Below are positions 25,517 to 40,026 of a stretch of 40,026 bases of DNA, piece by piece. The translations under genes and the position numbers were made by a program. This DNA comes from a virus. Positions within the stretch are counted from its first letter, which is position 1, and the number at the start of each line of letters is the position of its first letter. Below the pieces are notes generated by a model that was given only the letters and a program-made list of their open reading frames with translations, was not told the DNA's origin and ran no database searches. The stretch is from the IMG/VR virus record IMGVR_UViG_3300028883_000083, positions 1 through 40,026 of that record, one strand, 5' to 3'.

Positions 25517-26359
25517 TCAGTCGAACAAGTTGCGCTGCTGGGCCTCGTACTTTTTGCGCTTGAGCGGCCACCGCATGACCAGCTGACCACCATGCGAATG
25601 CCCGGCATTCTCGCGGAAAACGCCCGGCCACTTGGCCATGAGCTGGGCGTTGGCGGAGCGCTCCTGGGCCTCTCCGCGCACGTTGTGGGCCTGGAGGCCC
25701 CCCTTGTTCTCCCACCGCAAGTACTCAGCGTACACCTGCTCAACTCGCACTACGGCCCCGTATTCCTCAAGGTGCTGGCACGAATAATCGTAGTCTTCCT
25801 TGAGCGTGAACGTGGGGTCAAAACGCAAGTGGGTTGGTCGGACTGCGATAAGCCGAGTGATTATGAAGCCGTGAGTGTGGTATACCTCGTTCTTGACAGC
25901 GGCCATCCAGCATGAGTGGTGCTTTGCGGGCAACCCTGCCAGGTGGGCCTCGGGTACGTTCTGGAATGCCGCCCAGAACTCGTTGATGACGTGCCCGAAC
26001 TCGAGCTTTATGCCCTCACACTGGGTCTCGCCTTTGCGCTTGCCCCGCTTTATGACCTTGTCGCGGGAGAAGGACTGCAAGTCGTCGTCGCACATCACGC
26101 ACACTGCATCGTGCCGGAAGGCGTGCTCCAATGCGATGTTCCGCACTCGGGGCAACCGCCCCTTGGGATTCCGGTCGTCCACGTGCACTATGGTGGGGGT
26201 GTGGGTCTTGAGCTTGCGGGCCTCGGCGAGGTACTCGGGAGCGTCGTCCTGCACGAACCACGTTGCCGGGCCAATCAGCGCTGTGAGGGGCGCTACGTTC
26301 TCGGGGCGTCCGGACGACACCACCGCCACGTACCAGTTGCGTAAGTCGCTACGTATCAT
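25517..26359 (-). CDS. TAGT-like GT-A glycosyltransferase, probable DNA base glycosyltransferase
   Basis: A 280-residue protein resembling the TET-associated glycosyltransferase (TAGT) family, predicted to glycosylate hydroxymethylated bases in phage DNA. Visible features: VAVVSSGRPENV at 11-22 (nucleotide-sugar strand and loop), LPRVRNIALEHA at 69-80, the metal-binding CDDDLQSF at 90-97 (DXD), and FDPTFTLKEDYDYS at 180-193, then GG at 220-221, the usual C-terminal acceptor/catalytic region. ATG overlaps the upstream stop as ATGA. It ends the 29188 operon. No TET/JBP dioxygenase is visible, so the hydroxymethylated base may come from the TS-like gene at 32588. A related GT-A sugar transferase for a protein is the alternative. 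Confidence 0.7.
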   Translation of the reverse strand: MIRSDLRNWYVAVVSSGRPENVAPLTALIGPATWFVQDDAPEYLAEARKLKTHTPTIVHVDDRNPKGRLPRVRNIALEHAFRHDAVCVMCDDDLQSFSRDKVIKRGKRKGETQCEGIKLEFGHVINEFWAAFQNVPEAHLAGLPAKHHSCWMAAVKNEVYHTHGFIITRLIAVRPTHLRFDPTFTLKEDYDYSCQHLEEYGAVVRVEQVYAEYLRWENKGGLQAHNVRGEAQERSANAQLMAKWPGVFRENAGHSHGGQLVMRWPLKRKKYEAQQRNLFD

Positions 26360-26727
26360 GCAACACCCCCCATCGGCGGATACCGCCTCTGCCGCTGGGA
26401 CGGCAATAACACTCGCTCACACCTTTCCCCGGAGAGCAGGGCTTCGGCCTGGGCTGCCGTTACCGGCTGAGCGCCGATGGACACAAGGCGCTTCCGCTCC
26501 TCGTCGGTCACCCAGATTACCGTCCGCCCGGACGGATGGTGCTGCTCGGTGGCCAGCCTTGCCTGGCGGGGCACCCCGGCCCCTACCGCAAGCAGCCGCA
26601 AGGCAGAGACCGCATCACACGTCGGCGGTGCGGCGAACAACCGCGACATCCGCGCAAAGCGCCCCCGCTCCGACGATGCCCTCCGCGAGTTGTCCACGAA
26701 CAGATTCCTGAAGTATACATAGTTCAT
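26356..26727 (-). CDS. Hypothetical protein (123 aa)
   Basis: Basic protein coupled by ATGA overlaps on both sides (stop over the glycosyltransferase start, start over the gene upstream). Contains TVIWVTDEERKRLVSIGAQPVTAAQAEALLSGERCERV, which reads like a short strand followed by a helix-turn-helix-like pair. I do not recognise it. Being fused translationally to the TAGT-like gene, it might assist that enzyme. Confidence 0.6.
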   Translation of the reverse strand: MNYVYFRNLFVDNSRRASSERGRFARMSRLFAAPPTCDAVSALRLLAVGAGVPRQARLATEQHHPSGRTVIWVTDEERKRLVSIGAQPVTAAQAEALLSGERCERVLLPSQRQRRYPPMGGVA

Positions 26728-26999
26728 TCTGGCACCCCCTCTCGGGCTATCACGGCCCGCATGACGTGCAGGGACATCTCGGAGTTGGCAACCGCCATAT
26801 TGTGCAAATCACACATGTGGGCAGCGATGGCGCACATGTTGGCAGCGATGGCGTCGGAGAACGTTACGCGGAAAAAGCCGTAGTCCTTGTCCTCCTCGTC
26901 GAAGATTATGAGCACCTGCGAAGCGTTCACGCGCTTCCACTCCCAGTAGCTGCCGTAGCACAACGCAGCGGCATGTTCGATTCTTTCCTTGTCATCCAT
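26724..26999 (-). CDS. Hypothetical protein (91 aa)
   Basis: ATG at 26997-26999 follows GCGAGGAG. The sequence mixes YGSYWEWKRVNASQVLIIFDEEDKDYGFFRVTF, a beta hairpin pattern, with an Ala/Met/His-rich helix (AIAANMCAIAAHMCDLHNM). No family recognised. Part of the accessory operon. Confidence 0.6.
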   Translation of the reverse strand: MDDKERIEHAAALCYGSYWEWKRVNASQVLIIFDEEDKDYGFFRVTFSDAIAANMCAIAAHMCDLHNMAVANSEMSLHVMRAVIAREGVPE

Positions 27000-27000
27000 C

Positions 27001-27594
27001 TCACTCCTCGCTTTCTTTCAGGGCGGCACGGGCCTTTTTGAGAGCAAACCTAACACTCGCCGCACATGGGCCACAAGTATGACACCCATCATTATCTTTG
27101 AGGAACCATTGACGTTGGGCTGAATCCATGATAGCTCCATAACCAACCCCCTCACAGAGTGGTCTTACAGCATCGTCTTCTGGTGCCCGGATGTTTTTTG
27201 CCCGGTCACCATCGCAATCGCATAACTGTAGGAGTTCGATGCATCTCTCCAACGCCCCCCTCATCTTGGCGGTACGCTGCTCGGCGTACTCCGTCAGCAG
27301 GGCGGCGAGGCGGGCGGTAATTCTCTCGGTTGCGGCTATGGCTTGGTCCGATTCGACCGCACGCTCGTATTGCATCATTGCTTCGGTCAATTCATCATCG
27401 CACCACATGTTGCCCGCCCACTCCTGCGCCGACTGCGGCGGGGCGGTGGTTACTTCTTCCCGCAGCCTCTCGCACTCGGCCTTGAGCGCGGCGATCTCAT
27501 CTTCTACCGCATTGCTGATAGCTTCGGTTAATCGGCGAACCCTGCTCGCTGCCAGTTCAGCCCTATTCACAAGAGGGTCATTACTTGTCGTCAT
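27001..27594 (-). CDS. Coiled-coil protein with Cys-rich end (197 aa)
   Basis: ATG at 27592-27594 follows GAAGGAGG. Residues 8-50 are a predicted coiled coil (RAELAASRVRRLTEAISNAVEDEIAALKAECERLREEV), a second helical segment follows, and the C-terminal third has CDCDG, then GCHTCGPC, a possible metal site. It contains the only GATC tetramer I found in the window (27493). Similar helical phage proteins of unknown function are common; I cannot assign a role. Confidence 0.65.
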   Translation of the reverse strand: MTTSNDPLVNRAELAASRVRRLTEAISNAVEDEIAALKAECERLREEVTTAPPQSAQEWAGNMWCDDELTEAMMQYERAVESDQAIAATERITARLAALLTEYAEQRTAKMRGALERCIELLQLCDCDGDRAKNIRAPEDDAVRPLCEGVGYGAIMDSAQRQWFLKDNDGCHTCGPCAASVRFALKKARAALKESEE

Positions 27595-27637
27595 CGGCGG
27601 CCTCCTTCGGCCTGACTCTAAATGTGTATTCACTCAT
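27581..27637 (-). CDS. Possible 18-residue leader peptide
   Basis: ATG at 27635-27637 is preceded by GGAGGT seven bases away, and MSEYTFRVRPKEAADDDK ends in TAA at 27581-27583, overlapping the next start by 14 bases. Its own codons contain the Shine-Dalgarno of the following gene (GAAGGAGG), so its translation could couple to or mask it. It is short, so it may be chance. Confidence 0.35.
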   Translation of the reverse strand: MSEYTFRVRPKEAADDDK

Positions 27638-27664
27638 TTCATCTACCTCCTGCCCTCGCGGGCG

Positions 27665-27868
27665 TTATTGGGCGAATGTGTTAGAGAGCAACCCATGCCA
27701 CTCGGTCATTCTGTCCTTGTGTCTACAGTCAAGGCAGGTAACAACCGCCTTGCGCTCATCGTAACTTCTATCGTCGGGGTGTCTTGGGTCTGGCTGTAGC
27801 TTTCCACGCCACAAGCGAGTATTGCGGCTTCCGCACTTTCGGCAACGACGTTTCTTTTGTGCTTTCAT
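27665..27868 (-). CDS. Zn-ribbon protein (67 aa)
   Basis: ATG at 27866-27868 with AAGGAGG upstream. CRKCGSRNTRLW and later CLDCRHKDRM give a four-cysteine zinc ribbon, typical of small nucleic-acid-binding or topoisomerase-like phage proteins. The Lys/Arg-rich start (MKAQKKRR) fits nucleic-acid binding. Function unknown. Confidence 0.7.
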   Translation of the reverse strand: MKAQKKRRCRKCGSRNTRLWRGKLQPDPRHPDDRSYDERKAVVTCLDCRHKDRMTEWHGLLSNTFAQ

Positions 27869-27939
27869 CTCTCCGCCTCCTTTGCCCTCGCGGGCGGTCG
27901 GGGTTAGTGCCAAGGGGCCTCTCGGCCCCTGGCGGTTGG

Positions 27940-28356
27940 TCACCTTGTCACCGTTACTCGCAGGTGGGACAGAACGTGTACAAGCAGCTGCTTTATGTCG
28001 TAGCCCCGCTCCTCCACCGGATTATGGCCGAATCCGCGCCACACCCATGTGCCCCGGCGACGCACCCACATAGCCGTCGCGGGCGGTGGCTTATAGCCGT
28101 CCCGAGCTATAGCACGACAAACAGCCCGAGCCGCCTTGTACATGAGCGCAAACGTGCCCGGCCGCAAGAACGCGTCCGTGCCCGGCCAACACCCCCCGCT
28201 GACGGCGTACTGTGCTGCTATTTCAGCTGTGACCTCGTCGTCCTTGCCGGTGCGGGGGAAGGAGGCAAAGACGCCCCCACCCCTCAGGCCCTCAACGTCG
28301 AAATGCCCGAACTCGTCGTCCGGCACAAACTGAGCGCGATACCTTACTTCTACCAT
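27940..28356 (-). CDS. Hypothetical protein (138 aa)
   Basis: ATG at 28354-28356 after TTAAGGAGG. Contains DDEFGHFDVEGLRGGGVFASF and later a Trp/Arg-rich patch (TAMWVRRRGTWVWRGFG). Some of the body (FALMYKAARAVCRAIARDG) is similar in layout to its neighbour at 28367 (QFELMYRLADAAAGACDD), which suggests the two genes are diverged relatives. No known family. Confidence 0.65.
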   Translation of the reverse strand: MVEVRYRAQFVPDDEFGHFDVEGLRGGGVFASFPRTGKDDEVTAEIAAQYAVSGGCWPGTDAFLRPGTFALMYKAARAVCRAIARDGYKPPPATAMWVRRRGTWVWRGFGHNPVEERGYDIKQLLVHVLSHLRVTVTR

Positions 28357-28366
28357 TGTGTCCTCC

Positions 28367-28843
28367 TTAACCCGTGAATCCAAGAAAGATGCTCGTGGCC
28401 CGGACCAGAAGCCGGTTCAGGTCGGTGTCGCAGATAGCGCCCTCCGAGCAGCCGAGCCAGCCCCAGCGGCGCTGTGCTCCCCGCCCGTTGCCGATACGGC
28501 CGTATTCGAAGAGTCGCTGACAGCCGGCAGGCGACTGCACTTCGGGGTCGTCGCAAGCGCCCGCAGCCGCATCGGCCAGCCGGTACATCAGTTCAAACTG
28601 TTCCGGCGTTACGTACTCGTAGAAACTGGACCGCCAGCAGCACTGCTGGTCGCTGTACAAATGTGCCATCCGCTCGACAAGCTGGAACTCCGGCTCGTCT
28701 CCGCTGTGCGGTGCGAACGTGGCAAGGTGGTGTGAGCCACGGTGGTCGCGGCCCCATACCTCAAAAGAGTTGGCACCGGGGCCCCGGCGAACCTGATACT
28801 CGTTCAGGGCGCTCGGGTCGAAGTTTCTGTCTTCTGTGTTCAT
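28367..28843 (-). CDS. Hypothetical protein (158 aa), diverged relative of the 27940 gene
   Basis: ATG at 28841-28843 follows GGAGG. It begins with a short beta region (YQVRRGPGANSFEVWG) and has FELMYRLADAAAGAC in the middle, matching the FALMYKAARAVCRAI of the next gene in order and spacing. This looks like a duplicated small accessory gene. Function unknown; no metal or catalytic motif. Confidence 0.65.
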   Translation of the reverse strand: MNTEDRNFDPSALNEYQVRRGPGANSFEVWGRDHRGSHHLATFAPHSGDEPEFQLVERMAHLYSDQQCCWRSSFYEYVTPEQFELMYRLADAAAGACDDPEVQSPAGCQRLFEYGRIGNGRGAQRRWGWLGCSEGAICDTDLNRLLVRATSIFLGFTG

Positions 28844-28873
28844 CGTAGAGTCCTCCAAAAACGTAAAAAAGGT

Positions 28874-29188
28874 TCAGACCTTGCGAACGCCACCGTCCGC
28901 CACCAAAAGCATCGCACGCATTTCGGAAAGGTCGCAATCGCTGCTGACGTCAAACTGGAAAGTCACAACTGCGCTCTCTCCCAGCCCGTGCCGGTCCCAC
29001 ACCATTCCTTCCGGGGCCCACAGCTGGAAAATCATGTCGTCCCCGGCCCGCGAAGCTGCCACAAAGCCACCGTGCCCGGCGACCGTTGCCACCAGAGAGC
29101 GGTAGTAGGCTTTGGCCTCGATGGCCTTGCTGGAGTTGCGGCGGAAGATTGTCCCCCGGAAGCGCTTGTCGGTGAAGTTGTAGTCCAT
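28874..29188 (-). CDS. Hypothetical protein (104 aa), first gene of the accessory operon
   Basis: ATG at 29186-29188 preceded by the leader AACCAAGGAG that also precedes the gene at 2722. The protein is beta-rich (GDDMIFQLWAPEGMVWDRHG, SAVVTFQFDV) with a basic N-terminal part. No family recognised. As the first gene behind the conserved motif it is likely expressed early and strongly. Confidence 0.65.
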   Translation of the reverse strand: MDYNFTDKRFRGTIFRRNSSKAIEAKAYYRSLVATVAGHGGFVAASRAGDDMIFQLWAPEGMVWDRHGLGESAVVTFQFDVSSDCDLSEMRAMLLVADGGVRKV

Positions 29189-29210
29189 TTGTGTCTCCTT
29201 GGTTTAGTTT

Positions 29211-29543: not shown

Positions 29544-29565
29544 GGAGGGGCGTCCAGGCCCCTCC
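29544..29565 (-). terminator. GC hairpin after the replication/modification operon
   Basis: GGAGGGGC and GCCCCTCC form an 8-bp perfect stem with a 6-base loop 14 bases past the stop at 29580. There is no T tract, so it may stall or stabilise the transcript rather than terminate by itself. Confidence 0.45.
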
Positions 29566-29579: not shown

Positions 29580-29966
29580 TTACGAATCGGCACCTGCACC
29601 GTCCTCCGGCGGCAGGCCTTGGCAGGCGGCCTTTGTTTCGCGGATGATGGCAGCGGCTGCGGCCTCCGCCTTTGCATGGCAAGCAGCAAGGGCAGACTCG
29701 AGGGAAAAGTGGACTTCTTCGACGGAAGCCTCAAGTGCGTATTGCCCGGTTTCAGGCCTTTCCAATCGAATCTTCACCACCGCACCACACTCGCTGCCTC
29801 CGCTAGCGGCCAAGGCAACTATGCGGCCCTCTTTCGGCACATAGCGCCAAGGGCCACCGGGGGCACGCCCGGCCACCCACACCTGACGCCCGCCAAACAG
29901 CATCCCGGCAGCCAACTTCATAACGCCCAACTCCGGGGCTGTGCTCGTCTCAAATTTTGCTGGCAT
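29580..29966 (-). CDS. Hypothetical protein (128 aa)
   Basis: Last gene of the operon, overlapping the GT-B gene by 17 bases. The first half is beta-rich (MLFGGRQVWVAGRAPGGPWRYVPKEGRIVAL), the second half is an Ala/Glu helix (ESALAACHAKAEAAAAAII). No family recognised. Proximity to the glycosyltransferase makes a supporting role possible. Confidence 0.6.
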   Translation of the reverse strand: MPAKFETSTAPELGVMKLAAGMLFGGRQVWVAGRAPGGPWRYVPKEGRIVALAASGGSECGAVVKIRLERPETGQYALEASVEEVHFSLESALAACHAKAEAAAAAIIRETKAACQGLPPEDGAGADS

Positions 29967-30951
29967 TGTGTCGTTCCTCCATCTTGTCTATGAACTGTTC
30001 CAGTTTCGGTAGCTGAAATTCTGAATTGAAGTGCTGCATTGCCACGTCGCGAAGCGCCGTCGGCGTTTCAGTCGGCCAGATGCGCCCCGCCTTCTCCACA
30101 AACTCATCGACGGTGCCAAAGCACAAGTCGGCACCGAATAGGTCAGCAGCCCCCGGCCACGCGTGCACCAACACCCGACGCCCTGCAGCCATGGCCTCGA
30201 TTACTGCGTGCGGGCAGCCCTCCCAGGGAGACGTGGACACCACGAGGTCGGCGTCCTCCAGGTGCCCCGCCATCTCCTCGGGGGTGCACCACCCGTGGAA
30301 CTTGACGACACCCCCACGGCTGGCAACCGGGGCACTCACTATGGCCTCGAAGTACTGCTCAAAACGGGCACTTTGCCACTCCCCACACAAGTGCAATTCC
30401 GTGCCTGCCTGATAGCGCATCAGCAGGGCCATGTAGCACTGGAGTAGGAGCGGAATGCCCTTTTTGTGGTTCAGGTAGCCGAAGTGATACAACCGCCTTG
30501 GGGGCACGTCGGCTATTCGCCTCACGATGGGGGTGGCCGCGACCGGCACCGAATTGTGAATCACGGTTGTTTCAGGCACAATCGACCTGAACACCTGCGG
30601 ATGTGCCTTGTTCGCATACTCCCGCACGTGCTCCGCCACAAACACAACGCCGTCCACACGACGCCAGTCCACCATGTGCAGAAGCCGGGGCTCGAATACC
30701 TCGTACGACCGCAGGTGGGTGACTATGCAGGGGCTGTCAGGCAGCATCGCTTTTGTGACAACGGCAAGGCTCGGGTCAGCCCAGGTGCTGAGGATTATGT
30801 CGGCATCATGTGCCGCCATCGTAATCTCAGCCGCAGAGGGGCCACCCAGCATAAGGCGGACGGTGTTCCCTCGGCTCTTGAAATAATCCGCATACATGGC
30901 CGCGAACTTATTATTGAACCGATTCAGAATAAGTAGTCGTTTTCCCTTCAT
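29950..30951 (-). CDS. GT-B glycosyltransferase (GT4-like)
   Basis: A 333-residue enzyme. N-terminal Rossmann strand MKGKRLLILNRFNN, then VIHNSVP at 130-136 (typical linker between domains), FGYLNHKKGIPLLL at 157-170 (donor phosphate-binding loop) and STSPWEGCPHAVIEAMAAGRRVLV at 239-262, which carries the E-x7-E motif of GT4 enzymes. It likely transfers a nucleotide-activated sugar, perhaps onto a modified base or a sugar already attached. ATG overlaps the upstream stop as ATGA, linking it to the methyltransferase operon. Confidence 0.8.
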   Translation of the reverse strand: MKGKRLLILNRFNNKFAAMYADYFKSRGNTVRLMLGGPSAAEITMAAHDADIILSTWADPSLAVVTKAMLPDSPCIVTHLRSYEVFEPRLLHMVDWRRVDGVVFVAEHVREYANKAHPQVFRSIVPETTVIHNSVPVAATPIVRRIADVPPRRLYHFGYLNHKKGIPLLLQCYMALLMRYQAGTELHLCGEWQSARFEQYFEAIVSAPVASRGGVVKFHGWCTPEEMAGHLEDADLVVSTSPWEGCPHAVIEAMAAGRRVLVHAWPGAADLFGADLCFGTVDEFVEKAGRIWPTETPTALRDVAMQHFNSEFQLPKLEQFIDKMEERHNASKI

Positions 30952-31436
30952 TGGCGCACTCCTTTCAGGTACTCCAGGGCCTGGTGGGCGGCGTCAGCCA
31001 AAGCCGTCCCCTTCGGCAAGTTTTCAGCCAGGTACTCCACACGGGGGGTGACGAGCTTCACCACAGCTGCCAATCCGTGAATCGTCTTCATCATTGAGTA
31101 TGACTGCAAGTTCAGCACATCCATCAGCCACAGCGCCCCGGCGACATGTGGCCCGTGCTCCTCCTCTGCGGAATGCACTGTCATGCTCGGTGGCAAAAGT
31201 GCAGGCTCATTCACATCGACGTCTGAGCGTATGTATACTTCCAGGCTGGGCTGGCTGTCGTCAGTTGGATTAAACTCCAAGTGGAAGTATGCATGGGATT
31301 TGCCGGCCTCGTCGAACAGAGCAATCTTTTTCGGCAGTCGCCTGTCAGCCGAGGATGCAGCAATCTCCCCGTAGTCCAGGTGTCGCACCCCCAGCTCCAG
31401 GGCAACCAGGCGGCTTCGTCCTTCCACGCGCCCCAT
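30948..31436 (-). CDS. Hypothetical protein (162 aa) in the glycosyltransferase cluster
   Basis: Start ATG at 31434-31436 overlaps the methyltransferase stop as TGATG, and the stop overlaps the GT-B start. Contains RLPKKIALFDEAGKSHAYFHLEFNPTDD, a beta-rich stretch, and a helical end. I do not recognise it. Its strict coupling to the two enzymes suggests a part in the same pathway. Confidence 0.65.
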   Translation of the reverse strand: MGRVEGRSRLVALELGVRHLDYGEIAASSADRRLPKKIALFDEAGKSHAYFHLEFNPTDDSQPSLEVYIRSDVDVNEPALLPPSMTVHSAEEEHGPHVAGALWLMDVLNLQSYSMMKTIHGLAAVVKLVTPRVEYLAENLPKGTALADAAHQALEYLKGVRQ

Positions 31437-32128
31437 CAGAGGGCCTCCGCATGCAGCAGGCCATCGCAAGTGGCTACCGCCAGTATGCCGTCAGCGAAGA
31501 ATGGCCACCCCGACTCAATGCCGGTCGGCGAGAATATCGTGTCTGATTGCTTCGGCCACTGGTAGTACAATAACTCACGGACCACAAATCCGTGGCGAGC
31601 CAGCAAGGTTGTGAGCGTCGTCGGGGAGTACCACGCCACATGGTCTTCGTGCACAAGCTCCTCATGCGCCAGCCCGAGCGATAGCCGGGCGTACAGGCTG
31701 AAGGCATTCGGAACACTGACCACCAGCCGCCCCCGATAACTTGTGCCGCGGATTGTGTCGAGCAGAATGCCCGGATTAGACAGGTGCTCCAGCACTTCCG
31801 GAAGCATGAGCACTTCGCAGGTGCGGCAGGCCCCGATAATCTCCGGATGGTTGGGGTCTTCAAAATCGGCGTACACCACATCATGACCCATGCTGACCAG
31901 CTCCGCAATCCACTCGTCGTTGTTGTCCAGCCCCCGTAGATTCGCAGCCACTTGGGACAAGCGCTCGTGTAGGTTACCACCGGCCCCCCTGTTCTCTTTC
32001 GGTGGGGTGCTGCCACAACAACCGAAGTGGGCCACCGCCTGGCCCCGTGCAATCTCAACCATCCAGGCCTTGCGGTCGGGCACCACCTTTGCCCTTGTGT
32101 CCAGCTTATGTGTGTATTTCGGGTGCAT
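31436..32128 (-). CDS. Class I SAM-dependent methyltransferase
   Basis: A 230-residue protein. VAHFGCCGSTP at 32-42 is the glycine-rich SAM loop (motif I), DVVYADFEDPN at 83-93 gives the acidic motif II, and VLMLPEVLEHLSNPGILL at 106-123 matches motif IV of the UbiE/Methyltransf_11-23 type. The end has HVAWYSPTTLTTLLARHGF, usual for sugar or small-molecule methyltransferases. No DNA-specific DPPY/NPPY motif, so methylation of a sugar or base side chain is more likely than classical adenine or cytosine methylation. ATG follows ATAGGAG. Confidence 0.75.
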   Translation of the reverse strand: MHPKYTHKLDTRAKVVPDRKAWMVEIARGQAVAHFGCCGSTPPKENRGAGGNLHERLSQVAANLRGLDNNDEWIAELVSMGHDVVYADFEDPNHPEIIGACRTCEVLMLPEVLEHLSNPGILLDTIRGTSYRGRLVVSVPNAFSLYARLSLGLAHEELVHEDHVAWYSPTTLTTLLARHGFVVRELLYYQWPKQSDTIFSPTGIESGWPFFADGILAVATCDGLLHAEAL

Positions 32129-32591
32129 CGATTTCTCCTATCGTGTCAAGTGCTTTGTTTGCCAGCGCATCAGCCATCTGCTGCCCTGTCGTATCTCGAG
32201 GTAGCCACAGCACGGACACTGACGCTTCATGAGCCGCACACAATGCCTGTATGCGGTCGACCAGTGGCTTCAGGTGTTCTGCCCGGCAACGCCAGTGCCC
32301 CCGCACGGTCTCCACCACCAGCTTGCTGTCGCTGTAAACCAAGACCCTGAGGTTCGGATATTTTCCCGTGGCAATCTCAATCCCACGGGTAACGGCGTGG
32401 TACTCACCGATGTTGTTTGTGGCTGGGTCAGGCAGTGTCTCAAAGAACTCCTCAACCTCGCCACCGGGCGGGCGGACGACGACCCCGAGGCCAACTCTGC
32501 CGGACCGACCCCCCAGGTGGTTGCCACGGCAAGCAGCGTCCACGTGCACTCTCACTGTGTCGCCGTTCAGGCCTGCTTCTGATAATCTCAT
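32106..32591 (-). CDS. Ribonuclease HI
   Basis: A 161-residue RNase H fold. The four acidic residues are visible: VHVDAACRGN (Asp18), NNIGEYHAV (Glu63), VYSDSKLVVE (Asp88) and TTGQQMADALANKA (Asp141). It degrades RNA in RNA-DNA hybrids, most likely Okazaki primers or R-loops near the origin. The ATG at 32589-32591 (GGAGG ahead) overlaps the TS-like stop as ATGA. Length is normal for type I. Confidence 0.9.
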   Translation of the reverse strand: MRLSEAGLNGDTVRVHVDAACRGNHLGGRSGRVGLGVVVRPPGGEVEEFFETLPDPATNNIGEYHAVTRGIEIATGKYPNLRVLVYSDSKLVVETVRGHWRCRAEHLKPLVDRIQALCAAHEASVSVLWLPRDTTGQQMADALANKALDTIGEIDAPEIHT

Positions 32592-33727
32592 AACTTCCTC
32601 CATGGTTTGAATGGGCTATGATTTAGTGCAGCCCAAAAATCAGGGGCAACACACGCCAGCGCCCCCCGTGCAAACGCCCCAGGGACACACTGTGCCTTGT
32701 AGGCCATGTAATAAGCAGCGGCATACGCATAGTCAGCGAGGGCGTTGGCCGCGAGGGGCACCCCATGATTGATGAACGCCCAGCGGATTGTGGTCAATGG
32801 AGTGGCCGTCCTGCCCTCCGCACATTCGGCTATGCCACAATATACGTCCTTGGCGAACATCCTGAACTCTTTAGCGCTCATCCCTACCGGCAGGTGAACC
32901 GCGAACGTCGGGTAATGCTTGCTCGGCGGATTAGCATGTGCCATGCTGTTCACCTGGGATTCACACGCCCCATAACCGTGCACACTCAATGCACTATGGG
33001 TGTATTGCCCAAGGGAAACACGCTCGTCCAGCATTCCGGTGAGCAAGACCTGCACAATCTCCTGGACTACTGTCCATGCGAACATGTTCACGTGGCTCAG
33101 CCCCCAGAGCAGGTCGGCACTACGTTGGGTGACGTGGCAATGCAGCTCGTGCAACCCATCGCGGTTTGGGCGGACGTAGAAGTAGAGCATGTTGTTGCAC
33201 GGGATGGCCGCCCGGCTGCTTTTGCTGTAGCGCCGTTCAAATGCACTTATGGTGTCCGTGGCTTGGTTCCACAGCCCCACCACTCCGCGACGTGTCCACA
33301 GCCCCTCCTGCCGGAACGTGCGCATCAGCTCGTCAAACGGAGATGGTGCGCCCTCGTCGACCGGCAGGCCCTCCTCAGGCAACGGCCCCATAAGACGAGG
33401 GCCGTAGGCGTCGTGCCACCTTAGCCCATCGTCGCTGAAGTCATAGGCCCGCTTGAGTGCCTTAGCCATAACGGGCTCCAGGCTATCTTTGCCAGCCAGT
33501 ATCCACCATAGCTCACAGCAAGCAGCGAATGGGTCGTTCTTGCGCCCCTTGAGGTAGACGTGACGATGCCGTGGGGAGCGCACCAGCACATTTACATTGT
33601 GCAGCTCGCGCACGGTACCAGCCCGGCTCGGGACTTCGGGGGCGGACTGGTTGGCCAGCTTTCGAGCCAGCTTGTATATGACGCCATTGATAGAGTGGGC
33701 CACCACAGGTTGCATCTCACGCTTCAC
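32588..33727 (-). CDS. Thymidylate synthase-like; probable deoxynucleotide hydroxymethylase
   Basis: A 379-residue member of the TS/dCMP-hydroxymethylase fold. GTG start at 33725-33727 overlaps the upstream stop as GTGA and follows AAAGGAGG. Motifs: GLRWHDAYGPRL at 101-112 (folate/dNMP region), AAIPCNNMLYFYVR at 173-186 with catalytic Cys177 followed by Asn rather than His, QRSADLLWGLSHVNMF at 201-216 (phosphate-binding Arg, active-site Asp), and LGQYTHSALSVHGYG at 239-253, the LGxYxHxxxSLHxYE signature of phage hydroxymethylase-like enzymes. The position that is Asn in TS and Asp in cytosine enzymes aligns near Val213-Asn214, so uracil or cytosine specificity cannot be read. With the HMUDK-like gene, dUMP hydroxymethylation is favoured. 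The protein carries about 90 extra C-terminal residues. Confidence 0.78.
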   Translation of the reverse strand: MKREMQPVVAHSINGVIYKLARKLANQSAPEVPSRAGTVRELHNVNVLVRSPRHRHVYLKGRKNDPFAACCELWWILAGKDSLEPVMAKALKRAYDFSDDGLRWHDAYGPRLMGPLPEEGLPVDEGAPSPFDELMRTFRQEGLWTRRGVVGLWNQATDTISAFERRYSKSSRAAIPCNNMLYFYVRPNRDGLHELHCHVTQRSADLLWGLSHVNMFAWTVVQEIVQVLLTGMLDERVSLGQYTHSALSVHGYGACESQVNSMAHANPPSKHYPTFAVHLPVGMSAKEFRMFAKDVYCGIAECAEGRTATPLTTIRWAFINHGVPLAANALADYAYAAAYYMAYKAQCVPGAFARGALACVAPDFWAALNHSPFKPWRKL

Positions 33728-34092
33728 GTCTTCCTCCTTTTCTCCTGCCACTCGCCACCTATCTCATCCAGGTCGAACTCCTCAGCTGGGATGGACTCGC
33801 CGCCCTCTGGCACGATGTAGCCTTGCGGCCCCCGGCGCTTTAGCGGGGGCACCGTTATGCTGATGTTGTGCTTCTCGCTCACCTTCTCAGCCTCGCTGAG
33901 TATCACGTTGTATACCCCACCGGAGTAAGTCATGTGCCCGTACAGGCAGCCATTCAGCTTCGATTCAACTACGAGCTTGTGGCGGCGCACCCACCAGTTG
34001 CGGATGTTGCCGAGCATCAGCGTGAGTGCGGCCCCTACGATGAGCCACCACGCAGCATGCAAAAAATACGGAGCCCAGATGTGGTTGTACAT
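33724..34092 (-). CDS. Single-span membrane protein (122 aa)
   Basis: ATG at 34090-34092 with GGAGGG upstream. Residues 9-28 (FLHAAWWLIVGAALTLMLGN) form a membrane helix; the remainder is soluble and charged, with LKRRGPQGYIVPEGGESI near the end. The family is unknown. It is coupled to the TS-like gene by a GTGA overlap, so it may be part of the same unit or merely co-transcribed. Confidence 0.65.
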   Translation of the reverse strand: MYNHIWAPYFLHAAWWLIVGAALTLMLGNIRNWWVRRHKLVVESKLNGCLYGHMTYSGGVYNVILSEAEKVSEKHNISITVPPLKRRGPQGYIVPEGGESIPAEEFDLDEIGGEWQEKRRKT

Positions 34093-34289
34093 CACTCCCT
34101 CCTTCCACGTTTCCGCTGCCATGGCTTCAGCTTTGTCGGGCTGTAGCCATCACGCAGCATGTTGCTGTTCTTACCAACCGCCTTGCACAAGCGACATGGT
34201 ATCTCGTTGGGAATCTCCGCCCCCGCCTCAGCCTGCTGCCGAGTCGTGGCCCCACACCGATGGCAACGGTATCTTATAAGCGCTGCCAT
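34092..34289 (-). CDS. Zn-ribbon protein (65 aa)
   Basis: ATG at 34287-34289 preceded by AGGAG. CHRCGATTRQ and later CRLCKAV supply four cysteines for a zinc ribbon, followed by a very basic end (PTKLKPWQRKRGRRE). It probably binds nucleic acid. It overlaps the MazG-like gene and the membrane protein gene. Confidence 0.65.
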   Translation of the reverse strand: MAALIRYRCHRCGATTRQQAEAGAEIPNEIPCRLCKAVGKNSNMLRDGYSPTKLKPWQRKRGRRE

Positions 34290-34675
34290 ATCGGCTCCTG
34301 ATTCTCCAGCAGAAGCTTGATGCCGGGCTCTGGCGGAATGAATTCCTTGTCCTTGAGAACTTTCCCGCCCATGTCCTTGCCACCGCTCTTCTGCATATTG
34401 CAGTGGTGCACCAAGTTCCACACCGGGCGGATGTCAATACCATAAGCAACCGCCGTGCCCTGGACCACATAGGTCAGGTCGGCTATGGCGTCGGCAATCG
34501 CCACCAAGTCGCCACTCGCCATCGCCTCCACGAGTTCTCCGTACTCCTGGGCCATCAGGCGCAACCGCAGCATGACGGTTGCATAGTCCGGGAGCTTCGG
34601 GGCCGGAGTCCCCACCTGGTCGTTCTTTACCATGAACTCAAGCACGTCTCCAAACATGTCAATGCTCCGTTTCAT
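34274..34675 (-). CDS. MazG-like nucleotide pyrophosphohydrolase
   Basis: A 133-residue protein with the metal-binding signature of the MazG/PRA-PH all-alpha superfamily: EYGELVEAMASGDLVAIADAIADLTYVVQGTAVAYGID at about 39-76, giving ExxE ... AxADxxxD. Such enzymes cleave NTPs or dNTPs to NMP and pyrophosphate. In a phage with altered thymine, a pyrophosphohydrolase could remove dUTP or dTTP to favour the modified nucleotide, but here that is inference. It overlaps both neighbours. Confidence 0.78.
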   Translation of the reverse strand: MKRSIDMFGDVLEFMVKNDQVGTPAPKLPDYATVMLRLRLMAQEYGELVEAMASGDLVAIADAIADLTYVVQGTAVAYGIDIRPVWNLVHHCNMQKSGGKDMGGKVLKDKEFIPPEPGIKLLLENQEPIWQRL

Positions 34676-34860: not shown

Positions 34861-35589
34861 TCATTTTCGTTGACTTGGGCCACCGATTGTCCACGCCTCC
34901 ATCCAAGCAGGGTCAGCAATCCTATCAACAATCGCATCCCACTCCCGCCCCATGCTTCGCATTCCCTCGGGGGTGAGGTTCGTTGTCACGTACGTTGGGT
35001 GGCCGCACCGCCACCGCAGGTCGAACAGTGAATCCTGCAAGGACACATTCCACCCACGAGAGTCGGCATAAGAGCGCCCGAAGTCATCAATCAACAATGG
35101 CCGGGCGTTGTTGAGGGTACTGCCTATTTGGTTGGTGCCATCACGCAGCCCCTCTACGAGCTCTGAGTGAGTTTGCTTTGTACAGCCGAACGTTCTCAAT
35201 AGGGAGTGTGTCTGCTTCTGTAGGATGAGCCAGTGCGATGGGGTGGTGCTTCCATTTTTGTGCACCTTCAGCCCCCCGTGGAGCTTGTGCCACATCACGA
35301 GCTTCATGGCCCCAAGCTTCATCAGGCGTCGCCAGATTATAAACAACAGCGATGTCTTCCCGACACCAACGTCACCCATCAGCAACAGCCCCCTCGGCTT
35401 CCCTGAGATAACGGACGCCACACTGTCAGTTATGGCTCCCCTCAGCTCATCGCTGATGTTTGGGTGGTGTATTGTGGCCCTGGCGTGCCTCGGGTTGCTT
35501 GCGGCTATTGGGTGCCAATAATCCTCAAACAGTCGTCTTGCCAGTTTTCTCTCTGGCTCGCCGGGACGCAGTGCGCTGGTCTTTTGCAT
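34861..35589 (-). CDS. DnaC-like replicative helicase loader (AAA+ ATPase)
   Basis: A 242-residue ATPase: Walker A GDVGVGKTS at 72-80, Walker B PLLIDDFG at 163-170, then RGWNVSLQDSLFDLRWRCGHPTYVTTNLTPEGM with a sensor-1-like strand, and a C-terminal arginine (DRIADPAW). Size and order match DnaC/IstB-type loaders that bring the host DnaB helicase to the phage origin. ATG follows GGAGGG and overlaps the initiator gene by 65 bases. Confidence 0.85.
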   Translation of the reverse strand: MQKTSALRPGEPERKLARRLFEDYWHPIAASNPRHARATIHHPNISDELRGAITDSVASVISGKPRGLLLMGDVGVGKTSLLFIIWRRLMKLGAMKLVMWHKLHGGLKVHKNGSTTPSHWLILQKQTHSLLRTFGCTKQTHSELVEGLRDGTNQIGSTLNNARPLLIDDFGRSYADSRGWNVSLQDSLFDLRWRCGHPTYVTTNLTPEGMRSMGREWDAIVDRIADPAWMEAWTIGGPSQRK

Positions 35590-36367
35590 AATGGCCCTCC
35601 AGAACCTTCAGCATGTTAGTTGGGTTGAGCACCCAGTCTATTGTCGCGGCCCAGTTCGTCTTTCGGCCGGACAGGAATTCATTGTCAGCAATGGACTGAA
35701 AGTACGCCCCGATGTTTGACTCGAGTTTCTCAAGCTCCTTGACTCTCTTGAGAATCTTGCGTACTCGGGCGGGCGGCAAGTGCAGTGTGCCATCCTTGTA
35801 ATGCTTTACGCTCGGCAAGTGGGGGCATATGCTCTCCCATTCGCGGATGACGCTGGTGGCAATCTCAATCTCTTCCTTTGTTAATTTACAATTCCCCTTC
35901 TTACTCTTTAGATTAGTATTAATTCCATTACCTCTACCTCTACCTATACCTACTTGGCAAGACCCTCTTGCAAGAGTCTTGCAAGAGTCTTGCAAGGGGC
36001 TTGCAAGAGGCTTACAAGACGAAGCTGTTGCAGGACAAGGATATATGGAAGCAGCCTCATGCCAATGTATCGGCTGGTGGTCGGTGAAGTGTCGTATCTG
36101 GATGAGTTGCCGCTCGGAACCGGCATCGCCATCCAAGCTGGCCGTGTAGCGGACGATGAATGGGTCATCCCCCTCAGCCAGCAGCCGCAAGCAGGCCTCA
36201 ACATCCATGTCTTCGTCATATGGAAAAAGCACCGCCTTGAGGCGGACTGGCCTATCCTCGAGCCTCCCCTCCCTGTCAGCAACACACCACAGAGCAATCA
36301 GGCAAAGCCGGGCCCTGTATGGTAGGGTCGCGAGGGATTCGTTCTGGAAGAATCCAGGTTTCACCAT
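35525..36367 (-). CDS. Replication initiator / replisome organizer
   Basis: A 280-residue protein; ATG at 36365-36367 after AAGGAG. The N-terminal winged-helix domain MVKPGFFQNESLATLPYRARLCLIALWCVADREGRLEDRP and PYDEDMDVEACLRLL is a common phage replisome-organizer start. The middle is encoded by 11-bp tandem repeats (LASPLQDSCKTLARGS), and the C-terminal part (LPPARVRKILKRVKELEKLESNIGAYFQSI) is a DnaD-like helical domain. It should bind the iterons inside its own gene and recruit the DnaC-like loader next to it, as lambda O does. Confidence 0.85.
   Translation of the reverse strand: MVKPGFFQNESLATLPYRARLCLIALWCVADREGRLEDRPVRLKAVLFPYDEDMDVEACLRLLAEGDDPFIVRYTASLDGDAGSERQLIQIRHFTDHQPIHWHEAASIYPCPATASSCKPLASPLQDSCKTLARGSCQVGIGRGRGNGINTNLKSKKGNCKLTKEEIEIATSVIREWESICPHLPSVKHYKDGTLHLPPARVRKILKRVKELEKLESNIGAYFQSIADNEFLSGRKTNWAATIDWVLNPTNMLKVLEGHYAKDQRTASRRAREKTGKTTV
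35875..36018. other. Candidate replication origin (iterons plus AT-rich DNA)
   Basis: Five tandem 11-bp units begin at 35967, 35978, 35989, 36000 and 36011, each starting with the dyad CTTGCAAG (last copy CTTACAAG); a weaker CTTGGCAAG is at 35953. Immediately beside them, 35875-35935 is AT-rich (GTTAATTTACAATTCC and TAGATTAGTATTAATTCC), unlike the surrounding GC-rich gene. Iterons plus an AT-rich unwinding element inside an initiator gene is the lambda ori design. Helical phasing (11 bp) puts all sites on nearly one face. Confidence 0.72.
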
Positions 36368-36368
36368 C

Positions 36369-36749
36369 CTACTCCTTAGATGCATGGGGTGTACCTCTGA
36401 GCTGCATCTGGTTTCTCCTTAGTTCTTGTAGTATCGACTGGCACCACCGCAGGTTTGTCTCGGCAGCCTGTGCTCGCTGCCTGGTGTGTGCAATCGTGTC
36501 TTCGAAATCATCGGGGGAAAAGGCAAAGTAGTACCCCTTTCCACAGCTTCCGATGGGTATCCCACGGGCCCAAGCAAGACGCCTGAGAGCGGCCACGTTC
36601 TGCTGAGTTATACTCAGGGCTCGTGCTATTGCTGCCCCCTTGGCTGGATTGCCCCGACCATGGTGTGCCCTGAGTCGGTTTGCCATCAAATCAAGCAAGG
36701 CCTCAGCGCTAACCGGGAGCCCATCAATGTCAAACGTCTGTAAGGTCAT
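36369..36749 (-). CDS. wHTH DNA-binding protein (126 aa)
   Basis: ATG at 36747-36749 follows AAGGAGGG. GNPAKGAAIARALSITQQNVAALRRLAWARGIPIGSCGKGYYFAFSPDDFEDTI is the layout of a winged helix: a recognition helix (SITQQNVAALRRLA) and a wing (GSCGKGYYFA). A helix-rich end (HTRQRAQAAETNLRWCQSILQEL) can dimerise. Such proteins often precede replication genes and act as regulators. It could bind the dyad at 25417, but this is untested. The stop is one base before the initiator ATG. Confidence 0.7.
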   Translation of the reverse strand: MTLQTFDIDGLPVSAEALLDLMANRLRAHHGRGNPAKGAAIARALSITQQNVAALRRLAWARGIPIGSCGKGYYFAFSPDDFEDTIAHTRQRAQAAETNLRWCQSILQELRRNQMQLRGTPHASKE

Positions 36750-37098
36750 CGATATTGACCCTCCTTTTTGGCTTTGCCCTTGGCTTTGGCTTGCGCTTTG
36801 AGTGTGGCTCAGCCTTTGGCTTTGGCTTTGCCCTGGGCTTTGGCTTTGGGGTGGCCCCGCTCTCTTCCCTGTAAGCAGCGTTGGCCGCCCGGAAGCGATT
36901 CCACGTCCCAGGCTTTGTCTTGGTGTCAACGGCATACGTCGCTCGACAGTCCTTGTTGGTGCAACGACCAGAAGGTACGCCGTCCCTTTTGTTGGGGTAA
37001 AGCTCAGCTACCCCCTTGGCGCCACAGAATGGGCAGTCGTTACATTCAACGTCAGGCACAGGAGTGCCGACCGGGCTCTTCTGTTTAGCTCTTACCAT
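36730..37098 (-). CDS. Zn-finger protein with H1-like basic tail (122 aa)
   Basis: ATG at 37096-37098 after GGGAGAG. CNDCPFCGAKGVAEL and CTNKDCRATYAVDTK supply a zinc ribbon with a Trp after it (TWNRFRAAN), the arrangement of small Lar-like restriction alleviation proteins. The last 50 residues are Lys/Arg/Pro-rich (KPKPRAKPKPKAEPHSKRKP). It resembles Lar and similar proteins only loosely, and may bind DNA in the modified genome. Confidence 0.65.
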   Translation of the reverse strand: MVRAKQKSPVGTPVPDVECNDCPFCGAKGVAELYPNKRDGVPSGRCTNKDCRATYAVDTKTKPGTWNRFRAANAAYREESGATPKPKPRAKPKPKAEPHSKRKPKPRAKPKRRVNIDDLTDV

Positions 37099-37134
37099 CC
37101 TACTCTCCCTTAGTGTTGTGGCTTTACTGGGGTG

Positions 37135-37161
37135 GGGGGCGGCCAAGGAGGCACCGCCCCC
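37135..37161 (-). terminator. GC-rich hairpin after the annealing-protein gene
   Basis: GGGGGCGG and CCGCCCCC form an 8-bp stem with an 11-base loop in the 104-base gap between genes. No clear T run follows, so it is a weak terminator or a translation-separating hairpin. Confidence 0.45.
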
Positions 37162-37202
37162 AACTCGTTGTAGCAAGTCACACCCCAGCTCTCTGCTGTC
37201 CG

Positions 37203-38111
37203 CTATTTCTTTTTGCCCTTAGCCTTCGGCTTGGCTTTCGCCTTCTTAGGGCCGGGCTCCATGTCCTGTACCGATATGGGGTCGCCTGCAGCCGACGCTG
37301 CGGGGGCTTCTGCCTCCTCTTCGGCGGTTGGCTCTGGCTTGCTGAAGAGCGTCTCCACGGTCTCCTTACGGGACTTGAGTGCCTTGAGGTCTCCGAGCAT
37401 CATGACGAGCTCCTCCACTTGCCACGTATCGCGAGGCTTGGCGTACGCCTCTGCGAGCATCTCATCGCTGACCCCGTATTCGGCGAACTGCTCCATCATC
37501 GGCTCTATGAGCGCCTCTATGTCCCCGCCCGCCTCCTTGAGCTTTGCGACTACACGGTTGCGGACGCTATTCATGGCAGCCTCGAGCATGGCGTCGATGA
37601 GATGCTGGGGCATAAAGTTGAGGATGGCATTCCGGGCTGCCTTGCTGACGCCAATCTGGAAGCGGATATCATCCTTCCGAAACTTGTCCATCCTGCCGTA
37701 AATCTCAAACTGCCTGTCCATGCGGTAGGGGCGCTCGTAGGTGCTGCCGGTCTCGAGGTCTGTGATTGCGGCTGTGAATATCCACTCAAAGCGAGTGCTC
37801 TGGATTGGCCGGTGGACTACCGTGCAGTTGCCAAACAGCCGGAATGCCTCAAGCGCCAATTGAACGCTCGCTCCCTGGACGTAGTCTTTTGTGCCGTCCT
37901 TGTTCTTGACGAGCCACCGATAATAGAAGTCCTCACCGGCGAGGCCAGAAATCTGGACGGCCTTGCGCGTGACGACCGCCAAGTCGCGGGGGAACTGGCG
38001 GGCCAGCACCATGGCTTCCCTGGTCTGCACCTGCAGCACCCCATCCCCGCTTGCAATTATGTCGCCGGCAGAGGGCGGCATGGCCTGCTGGTTATTGTTG
38101 ACGTCTGACAT
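37203..38111 (-). CDS. Putative single-strand annealing recombinase with H1-like tail
   Basis: A 302-residue protein. The body (REAMVLARQFPRDLAVVTRKAVQISG, DYVQGASVQLALEAFRLFGNC, FQIGVSKAARNAILNFMPQHL) matches a common phage family annotated as RecT-like or Rad52-like annealing proteins, with a conserved Arg-Asn-Ala-Ile-Leu motif and the GPS-like loop of the family. A C-terminal Lys/Pro/Ala tail (GPKKAKAKPKAKGKKK) suggests DNA binding. The paired nuclease at 38500-39351 would make the 3' ends it anneals, as in Red-type recombination. The exact superfamily needs HMM confirmation. Confidence 0.6.
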   Translation of the reverse strand: MSDVNNNQQAMPPSAGDIIASGDGVLQVQTREAMVLARQFPRDLAVVTRKAVQISGLAGEDFYYRWLVKNKDGTKDYVQGASVQLALEAFRLFGNCTVVHRPIQSTRFEWIFTAAITDLETGSTYERPYRMDRQFEIYGRMDKFRKDDIRFQIGVSKAARNAILNFMPQHLIDAMLEAAMNSVRNRVVAKLKEAGGDIEALIEPMMEQFAEYGVSDEMLAEAYAKPRDTWQVEELVMMLGDLKALKSRKETVETLFSKPEPTAEEEAEAPAASAAGDPISVQDMEPGPKKAKAKPKAKGKKK

Positions 38112-38127
38112 AGATTCCTCCTGGGGC

Positions 38128-38319
38128 TCAGCCCCATGTGTACTTGTTTATTTGTTCCGCACTCCACTTGTACCCAAAGCGCCGAATGATGCGCCTCACC
38201 GCTGCGTGCCAGCTGCGGTCAGAAAGGTTCCGCTGCCCTGCATAGTATGCTGAGCGGGCCAGTTCTCCGAGCATATGGCCGAGCTGCTCCTCTGTTGGTA
38301 CCGCTACTCCCTTCTTCAT
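38128..38319 (-). CDS. Hypothetical protein (63 aa)
   Basis: ATG at 38317-38319 with AAGGAGG five bases upstream. A helical, Arg-rich protein (TEEQLGHMLGELARSAYYAGQRN, AAVRRIIRRFGYKWSAEQINKY) without motif. It overlaps the longer gene at 38219 by 101 bases in another frame, so one of them may be spurious; the strong ribosome site supports this one. Confidence 0.55.
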   Translation of the reverse strand: MKKGVAVPTEEQLGHMLGELARSAYYAGQRNLSDRSWHAAVRRIIRRFGYKWSAEQINKYTWG

Positions 38320-38503
38320 CGTCTCCTCCTTCATCGTGTAAGCTCCTGCGTAAGCGAGCCTCCATCTGACACAGAAGGCAGGGCCCACCCGTGTTCGGCT
38401 CTGCTGTCATGTTGCCACAGGTCTTACAACGGGTGGGCCTGCGCCCTGCTGCCCGGAGTTCCCGCTGTAGTTGCCTGATGGTGGCTGCCGCGAACTTTAT
38501 CAT
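38219..38503 (-). CDS. Zn-ribbon protein (94 aa)
   Basis: ATG at 38501-38503 overlaps the nuclease stop as ATGA. CKTCGNMTAEP and CLLCQ supply a zinc ribbon after a short helix (FAAATIRQLQRELRA). The 3' third overlaps the next gene and is low-complexity and basic, which weakens the case for the C-terminal end. Coupled translation and the four-Cys motif still favour a real protein. Confidence 0.5.
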   Translation of the reverse strand: MIKFAAATIRQLQRELRAAGRRPTRCKTCGNMTAEPNTGGPCLLCQMEARLRRSLHDEGGDDEEGSSGTNRGAARPYARRTGPLSILCRAAEPF

Positions 38504-39351
38504 CGCCCGGTGTACCCCGGACACATCTTGTGGTAACCGCAATACTTCCGTGTACACACCCAGTGGTCAGGGTTGGCGTATGCGGCCCGGATTTTCCCCT
38601 CCCTTATTGACTCAACCGTCTCCATCATGAGGCGTATCCGCTCTAAGAGGCGGTCGACCATCACTTTCTGGAATCTCACCTTGACCGTCCGCACTCCGAC
38701 CGCCCCCCACTCCTGCTTGGCCTTCGACCACCGGGGCTTGACTAACACATCATTGTACATGTACGATGGATAGCGCTTCAGGTTCACCTTCATTCCGAGC
38801 GAGTAATGTGCGTTCTGCAGGTTGTTGGCATAGTCGGCTGCCGGCCATGAGCTGGCTGTCTTGGTGTCGCGCAGAACGTTCTTCTCGCGGATGTCCAGAC
38901 GCCCCCCCAGGTCGAAGGACTCCTTCGGGAGCAGGACTGTGAACTCCTCCTCCACAGCCAGGGGATTGAGGGTCGGGGCCACCTTGTCGTAGTGAGCAGC
39001 CGCACACAGTACTGAAACGTCTATCAGGTTGCCCTTGGTGACTGCCTGGTTTGCGGCCTCCTCTTCGGTCAGCAGCACTTCCCCCGCTGCCCACCGGGCG
39101 TTCGCCGCATCGCGGGCCACGTCCAGGGCCTCGTCCGGGAGCAGGGGCACCCCATCGTTCGCTATCTTGTGCTTGAGGTTCTCGTCGATGCTGGCGTGAG
39201 TGGCAGTGCCTATGAGGGCGGCCACCCCCGGTGGGATTATGATGTTGTCGGCGCCGATTCCATATGTCTTCCCATAACGGAACTGGAACTGCCGCTGGCA
39301 CCTGTGAAACATCCCAAGGTGGGACTGGTGCACTTCTGGTCTATCTGACAT
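38500..39351 (-). CDS. PD-(D/E)XK exonuclease with Fe-S cluster (Cas4/RecB-like)
   Basis: A 283-residue nuclease, ATG at 39349-39351 after GGAGGAG. H52 (GTATHASI), Asp153 (LGGRLDI), Asp162 and Lys164 (RDTKT) form the PD-(D/E)XK active site, and QNAHY at 179-183 is the QxxxY motif. Cys18 (FHRCQRQF) with Cys266, Cys271 and Cys277 (WVCTRKYCGYHKMC) matches the four-cysteine Fe-S cluster of Cas4 and AddB. It should resect DNA ends for the annealing protein at 37203. It overlaps the HMUDK-like gene by 11 bases. Confidence 0.85.
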   Translation of the reverse strand: MSDRPEVHQSHLGMFHRCQRQFQFRYGKTYGIGADNIIIPPGVAALIGTATHASIDENLKHKIANDGVPLLPDEALDVARDAANARWAAGEVLLTEEEAANQAVTKGNLIDVSVLCAAAHYDKVAPTLNPLAVEEEFTVLLPKESFDLGGRLDIREKNVLRDTKTASSWPAADYANNLQNAHYSLGMKVNLKRYPSYMYNDVLVKPRWSKAKQEWGAVGVRTVKVRFQKVMVDRLLERIRLMMETVESIREGKIRAAYANPDHWVCTRKYCGYHKMCPGYTGR

Positions 39352-40026
39352 GCTTTCTCCTCCTGCGGCGTCCACGGACAAGTCCGCGAGCCACGTTGTA
39401 TTTGTGGAACTCACACAGTGCGAACTCCACATTATTCATGCTCAGGGTGAGCGGTGCGTGCTGGCGGCGTGGGTAGGCGAGCTCAGGCCACGCAACGCCA
39501 GCATATCTGTGCGCCATCTGGTCGAGGAAGCCTTCCTCAAACTGCTCGTCGTAAAGCCTTAGGAAGAATCGGTCGGGGAGCAATCGCCCCCTCTTCCTAA
39601 GGTCGCTCACCCCCGCTATCGCTCCGGGGCCGAGGATGTAGAATGAGTCGTCGTGTATGCGGTGCCCCCAGAACGCAAGGTACGCCAAGTCGAGGACGAC
39701 CTGGTATGCAAGGAACTCGCCGACCTTCGGCAGCCCCGCCCCCTTGGAGAGGTAGTGGACTGCCTCGTGCCCGGTGGAGCAGCCACTCAGGACTCGCACC
39801 CAGTGCTTTGCTGTCTTGGCTGCCTGAGCCAGCGCCAGACAAGTCTGCACGACGCCCGACTCTGGCCGGTAGGAACTGTCCACCGCCACTGGGCAAATGC
39901 GGTACGCCCCTCGGAAAATCCTCTCGCCGAGCTCCTGTCGCTGCAATAGCTGGTCAGCTAAAGCCTTCCAGGAGAACTTCACCAGGTCGAGCCCGTTGGG
40001 CCACCACTCCTCGACAACCTGGGGCC
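39341..40026 (-). CDS. HMUDK-helical / thymine pyrophosphorylase family protein, C-terminal part
   Basis: Continuation of the gene at 1-390; full length 311 residues on the circle. The C-terminal landmarks of the family are clear: KVGEFLAYQVVLDLAYL at 184-200, ILGPGAIAGV at 214-223, and NVEFALCEFHKYNV at 282-295, matching the GxGxFxAYQ..DL, GPGA..G and ExxLCEF.KY blocks of the 5-hmdU DNA kinase helical domain. It ends in a very basic run (RGRRRRRKHVR), suggesting DNA contact. Residue 126 is His in the left repeat and Arg in the right. The enzyme may transfer or process a group on 5-hydroxymethyl-dU in phage DNA. Confidence 0.82.
   Translation of the reverse strand, partial: PQVVEEWWPNGLDLVKFSWKALADQLLQRQELGERIFRGAYRICPVAVDSSYRPESGVVQTCLALAQAAKTAKHWVRVLSGCSTGHEAVHYLSKGAGLPKVGEFLAYQVVLDLAYLAFWGHRIHDDSFYILGPGAIAGVSDLRKRGRLLPDRFFLRLYDEQFEEGFLDQMAHRYAGVAWPELAYPRRQHAPLTLSMNNVEFALCEFHKYNVARGLVRGRRRRRKHVR
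39887..40026. repeat. Terminal direct repeat, right copy
   Basis: Same 140 bases as positions 1-140, with C at 39900 instead of T at 14. The 126 bases after the mismatch are perfect. Confidence 0.95.

Follow-up and report, generated by a model that had tools for sequence, protein, structure and literature searches.

A putative kinase-less thymine hypermodification gene set in an uncultured phage, and the replacement of kinase by glycosyltransferase among its HMUDK_hel relatives

The virus record IMGVR_UViG_3300028883_000083 was analysed over its whole length of 40,026 bp (the window). The phage carries a gene of the HMUDK_hel family, a TAGT-family glycosyltransferase and an enzyme of the thymidylate synthase (TS) superfamily, and lacks the P-loop kinase that phosphorylates 5-hydroxymethyldeoxyuridine (5-hmdU) in DNA. 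These genes most likely form a kinase-less thymine hypermodification system ending in glycosylated 5-hmdU (probability roughly 0.55), with the chemistry predicted throughout from homology and gene context. The phage is best described as a very divergent, dispersed variant of a glycosyltransferase class that recurs in many uncultured phages. Sampled HMUDK_hel relatives carry a glycosyltransferase more often than a kinase, which corrects the reading of this kinase-named family, and the replacement pattern makes the role of HMUDK_hel directly testable. From the same pattern, a class of phages whose thymine carries sugars is predicted; the modification would bear on restriction, CRISPR targeting and DNA sequencing, and new DNA-labelling enzymes would come with it.

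Gene families in the window

The ends of the record are near-identical repeats of 140 bp (Table 1). Collapsed to one copy, they leave a unit of 39,886 bp in which a 311 aa minus-strand gene, otherwise split in two, is continuous; it runs from 390 to 1 and continues from 39886 to 39341. Because both halves of this gene are joined when the repeat is counted once, we conclude that the phage genome is essentially complete. A preliminary description of this DNA had placed an HMUDK_hel gene across the contig ends, and this is correct, except that the frame is open only with a single copy of the repeat. The joined protein matches PF18723 over residues 7–294 (E-value 3.4e-30; 105.8 bits, cut-off 25), each half alone also exceeds the Pfam cut-off, and each of the 14 columns that do not vary across 68 relatives is kept. 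Among cultured phages, the nearest relatives (24–27 % identity) come from Sphaerotilus phage SN1, Pseudanabaena phage Pam3, M6-like Pseudomonas phages and two Acinetobacter phages. HMUDK_hel is the aGPT-Pplase1 family, and SN1 and Pam3 have the gene annotated under that name.

The Pfam name reflects association with the kinase pathway and not a kinase domain, because the actual kinase, a P-loop protein (PF18748), is encoded separately, adjoining HMUDK_hel in SN1 and TS in ViI, and HMUDK_hel in ViI is a gene of its own, distant from both kinase and TS. No Walker motif is present in HMUDK_hel. A relative was modelled with confidence (pLDDT 92.6) as an all-helical structure. OGG1-type enzymes recur among its matches, but a DNA-glycosylase (HhH-GPD) fold was rejected, as the TM-scores are about 0.3 and the E-values above 1. 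Profile comparison with the amino acid:DNA transferase family gave a weak signal (P = 0.019). A DUF2786/DUF7168 protein is encoded close to HMUDK_hel (1120–1854), and five similar proteins were found among the HMUDK_hel loci described below.

The TS-like protein keeps Cys185, Arg210, Asn222, His258 and Tyr260. An Asn at the specificity position of TS enzymes goes with uracil substrates and an Asp with cytosine (PMC5175136; PMC6400193), and by the former rule (PMC5175136) the catalytic C185 and uracil-type N222 are those expected of a dUMP hydroxymethylase. The protein scores far under the NCBI cut-offs for true thymidylate synthase models, and its best relatives come from large phages of Acinetobacter, Serratia, Aeromonas and Vibrio, ahead of those from ViI-like phages. 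It is likely to be a dUMP-type enzyme and the source of 5-hmdU, as the preliminary description had proposed; the dUMP-type Asn fits either activity, and sequence does not distinguish hydroxymethylase from TS. Its start may be at 33751, at 33727 or at an ATG 12 codons into the frame, the last of which aligns with the relatives. One related locus (L209) has a thymidylate-kinase-like gene, recognized by eye, at 9366–9977, directly ahead of a TS resembling the one studied here. It is a candidate hmdUMP kinase that has no counterpart in this phage.

In the TAGT protein, the acidic motifs DDD (91–93) and ED (188–189) are kept. It matches a hidden Markov model (HMM) of the TAGTs from HMUDK_hel-linked operons (5e-10), and a structure model of moderate confidence finds GT-A enzymes among PDB entries, the best at 6e-6. 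Among cultured phages, Arthrobacter phages have its closest relatives. In T-even-like phages, TAGT has been assigned a DNA-sugar role (PMC13390438).

Enzymes of the known routes were looked for by six-frame searches of the whole record at E ≤10. No match was found to the P-loop 5-hmdU DNA kinase (PF18748), to the TET/JBP oxygenases (PF12851, Tet_JBP) or to the amino acid:DNA transferases (PF18724), and the only credible Walker-A protein in the genome is a DnaC-like loader (34861–35589). The absence of kinase and TET noted in the preliminary description was thereby borne out, and the TS, HMUDK_hel, TAGT, GT4 and methyltransferase proteins named there each score above the cut-off of their own Pfam family.

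Table 1. Features of the window considered in this analysis
Feature	Position	Strand	Evidence
Terminal repeat, copy 1	1–140	.	139/140 bases identical to 39887–40026
HMUDK_hel/aGPT-Pplase1 gene, N-terminal part	1–390	-	GTG start at 390; PF18723, 2.0e-13; contains FCN..RE.D motif
TAGT-family GT-A glycosyltransferase	25517–26359	-	PF20691, 1.4e-8, over cut-off
GT4 (GT-B) glycosyltransferase, role uncertain	29950–30951	-	PF13692 (Glyco_trans_1_4), 4e-14
Class I methyltransferase, role uncertain	31436–32128	-	PF13489 (Methyltransf_23), 4.2e-8
TS-superfamily enzyme, predicted dUMP hydroxymethylase	32588–33751	-	PF00303 (Thymidylat_synt), 4.9e-8; phrog_3676, 4e-46
All-alpha NTP pyrophosphohydrolase, PRA-PH/MazG type	34274–34675	-	PF01503 (PRA-PH), 4.6e-12
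HMUDK_hel/aGPT-Pplase1 gene, C-terminal part	39341–40026	-	PF18723, 9.1e-20; protein read on from position 1
Terminal repeat, copy 2	39887–40026	.	139/140 bases identical to 1–140

Kinase and glycosyltransferase replace each other

IMG/VR was scanned twice with HMUDK_hel alignments, which yielded 160 loci, some sharing a contig; five cultured phages brought the number to 165, all scored with HMMs built for this analysis. In this sample, which holds the loci closest in sequence to two queries and includes many contig fragments, 49 of the 165 loci have the P-loop kinase and 83 have a glycosyltransferase (TAGT in 74, a GT-B family in ten, both in one). Kinase and either TAGT or GT-B occur together in none of the 165, a count that leaves out a family (U1, see below) found with a divergent, non-adjacent kinase in five loci. 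With curated Pfam profiles and whole records, PF18748 was found in 0/31 records of the glycosyltransferase class and PF20691 in 0/22 of the kinase class, ViI included. The partner is usually a direct neighbour, lying within 300 bp of HMUDK_hel for 69 of the 74 TAGTs and 42 of the 49 kinases. TAGT loci are commonly ordered HMUDK_hel-TAGT-TS with overlapping ends, as in the compact operon of L015 (HMUDK_hel 8245–9114, TAGT 9102–9896, TS 9878–10930), or have TAGT directly ahead of HMUDK_hel.

HMUDK_hel, TAGT and TS without a kinase is therefore a widespread phage operon, and the claim that this phage has a new gene combination is not supported, part of the combination having already been described in pelagiphages (PMC9599517). 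There, TS, aGPT-Pplase1 and a putative glucosyltransferase were reported in one region and interpreted as M6-like thymidine hypermodification, with the glucosyltransferase given for another clade. The shared genes of the HTVC023P-type regions are those for the TS-like and HMUDK_hel-family proteins and a TAGT/PHROG 842-type glycosyltransferase ('beta-glucosyl-HMC-alpha-glucosyltransferase'). Compared with pelagiphages, the phage studied here adds GT4 and the methyltransferase, and its genes have diverged strongly and lie apart from one another.

Two trees of HMUDK_hel were used. A quick tree included 99 non-redundant proteins with long branches kept, and a more careful one had the three longest branches removed, leaving 96 rows (30 with kinase, 50 with glycosyltransferase, 16 with neither and none with both). 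The careful tree requires a minimum of 14 partner changes. From it came 12 independent pairs, all on supported branches, whose members differ in having the kinase; in these, the glycosyltransferase differed in the opposite direction in 8–9 and in the same direction in none (sign test, p ~0.004). The quick tree yielded only 7 supported pairs and a sign test that was not significant. A raw Fisher test gives 1.4e-13, but takes no account of kinship and should not stand alone. Kinase and glycosyltransferase thus replace each other across HMUDK_hel relatives. No statement of this replacement was found in the literature searched, whose reach did not extend to the founding papers (Iyer 2013, Lee 2018, Lee 2021).

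Several loci have other neighbours. Family U1 (~330 aa; L126, 9015–10001) is encoded near HMUDK_hel, or immediately upstream of it, in the kinase-less L126, L118, L124, L125, L132, L138, L147 and L156, and alongside a divergent kinase in L172, L178 and L180–182. A C-terminal NRFYEMLSAGLP-like motif suggests a GT-B enzyme, but U1 was not accepted as a further GT-B family, as it has no Pfam match and no profile link to GT-Bs. In L138, a sulfotransferase-like gene (10813–11628; weak Pfam match, below cut-off) lies between HMUDK_hel and TS and possibly indicates another 5-hmdU chemistry. SPASM radical SAM enzymes adjoin HMUDK_hel in L073 (10699–11736) and L183 (247–1170), where a TAGT-like glycosyltransferase is present and a kinase is not. 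HMUDK_hel was found with no TS, kinase or TAGT in the examined DNA of L014, L016, L035, L042, L048, L051, L055 and L067, most of which group as a clade of their own; a DUF5131 (Gp37/Gp68-type) gene lies near HMUDK_hel in L014 and apparently also in L051.

Predicted chemistry and alternatives

In the proposed pathway, the TS-like enzyme would make 5-hmdUMP from dUMP, with the pyrophosphohydrolase perhaps providing that dUMP or removing nucleotides that compete, and host kinases and a host polymerase would bring 5-hmdU into DNA. The all-helical HMUDK_hel would then bind 5-hmdU in DNA and present it to a transferase, acting as a shared recognition module whose partner is the P-loop kinase in M6/ViI-type phages and TAGT here, and TAGT would move a sugar onto the hydroxymethyl group. 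A kinase partner would lead via phosphorylated hmdU to amine-type bases, a route described for M6, ViI and phiW-14 (PMC6449724; PMC5977210), and a TAGT or GT-B partner to glycosylated hmdU. That HMUDK_hel is a general adaptor for 5-hmdU DNA with interchangeable transferases, the kinase in M6-type phages and GT-A (TAGT) or GT-B enzymes in a larger group of uncultured phages to which this one belongs, is a tentative proposal to which we give somewhat less than an even chance. If true, glycosylated, base-J-like hmdU DNA would be common in phages and would arise from a nucleotide precursor and not from TET/JBP oxidation.

Several observations weigh against glycosylated 5-hmdU as the end product in this phage. 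Its TAGT is only 15–23 % identical to the operon TAGTs, and the nearest cultured TAGT relative adjoins a gene for a TET-like oxygenase. TAGT, TS and HMUDK_hel are on one strand but do not lie together as an operon: some 13 kb separate TAGT from HMUDK_hel and 6 kb separate it from TS, whereas in relatives these genes are adjacent. The HMUDK_hel model has no significant fold match in PDB. Finally, the HMUDK_hel of this phage is on a very long branch in the quick tree (5.3 changes per column), and its function may therefore have shifted.

The first alternative is a state like that of SPO1 and SP8, which share a dUMP hydroxymethylase of the TS superfamily and for which no HMUDK_hel-glycosyltransferase step has been described. 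Here, 5-hmdU alone would replace thymine, and the glycosyltransferases and methyltransferase would act on host surface glycans. We consider this unlikely: GT4 is indeed nearest to polysaccharide enzymes, and no phage relative of it was found in a DNA modification locus, but the TAGT family is tied to DNA-base glycosylation and is coupled to HMUDK_hel and TS in relatives, and HMUDK_hel would be left with no task.

A second alternative, which we rate as quite improbable, is an M6/ViI-like route with the kinase missing or supplied by the host, in which HMUDK_hel or a host kinase would phosphorylate 5-hmdU on the way to a phosphate- or amine-type hypermodification. Pfam named the HMUDK_hel family after the 5-hmdU kinase, which it adjoins in M6-type phages, and the M6/Yuavirus-type 5-NedU pathway, represented here by SN1, Pam3 and Ab18, shares the TS-like hydroxymethylase and HMUDK_hel (aGPT-Pplase1) with this phage. 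However, this phage lacks further enzymes of the M6 type: the P-loop kinase, the amino acid:DNA transferase and the pyridoxal phosphate (PLP) and radical SAM enzymes that SN1 and Pam3 have. HMUDK_hel itself has no Walker motif, and dozens of kinase-less relatives have a glycosyltransferase instead. The replacement pattern also speaks against HMUDK_hel acting on pyrophosphorylated hmdU alone, the activity suggested by its older name, because that substrate needs the kinase.

Least probable is a plain TS in a phage with unmodified DNA and a relic HMUDK_hel, which would suit the long HMUDK_hel branch and the dUMP-type Asn, a residue that fits a hydroxymethylase as well, but not the retention of all invariant HMUDK_hel residues, the many best TS relatives in large phages (including ViI relatives) or the score far under the true-TS cut-offs.

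The glycosylation route favoured here also differs from that of the TET and TAGT clusters, such as gp65–gp66 of Arthrobacter phage Bolt007, which include the nearest cultured relative of this TAGT. In those clusters the TET-like oxygenase hydroxymethylates DNA, whereas this phage, with no TET, is predicted to make the hydroxymethyl group at the nucleotide level.

Other genes of the phage

The preliminary description had included both glycosylation and methylation of the product. Glycosylation by TAGT is part of the pathway proposed above. Extension or methylation of the sugar may fall to GT4 and the methyltransferase, but any part for them in DNA modification is a guess, because they have no relatives in other hypermodification phages, and neither was counted in the system. 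The GT4 protein is most like polysaccharide enzymes, had no phage relative by tblastn and was not found in the other HMUDK_hel loci. The methyltransferase gave a single, distant phage/virus match and was not found in the other HMUDK_hel loci or in comparable phages.

Almost all likely genes are on the minus strand. A nucleotide search gave no match to any cultured phage, and single-protein scans for close relatives of the HMUDK_hel, TS and TAGT proteins found none. Terminase relatives at about 40 % identity (L192–L199) had no modification genes in their examined DNA. No DNA polymerase was recognized among the proteins of the genome; other phage functions found were a portal, a major head protein, a protease, a terminase, a replication initiator, the DnaC-like loader and a PD-(D/E)XK exonuclease. 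The protein reported as a MazG-like pyrophosphohydrolase belongs to the PRA-PH family and not to MazG proper, the MazG profile giving 0.0098, under the cut-off, and 11 similar proteins were found among the HMUDK_hel loci.

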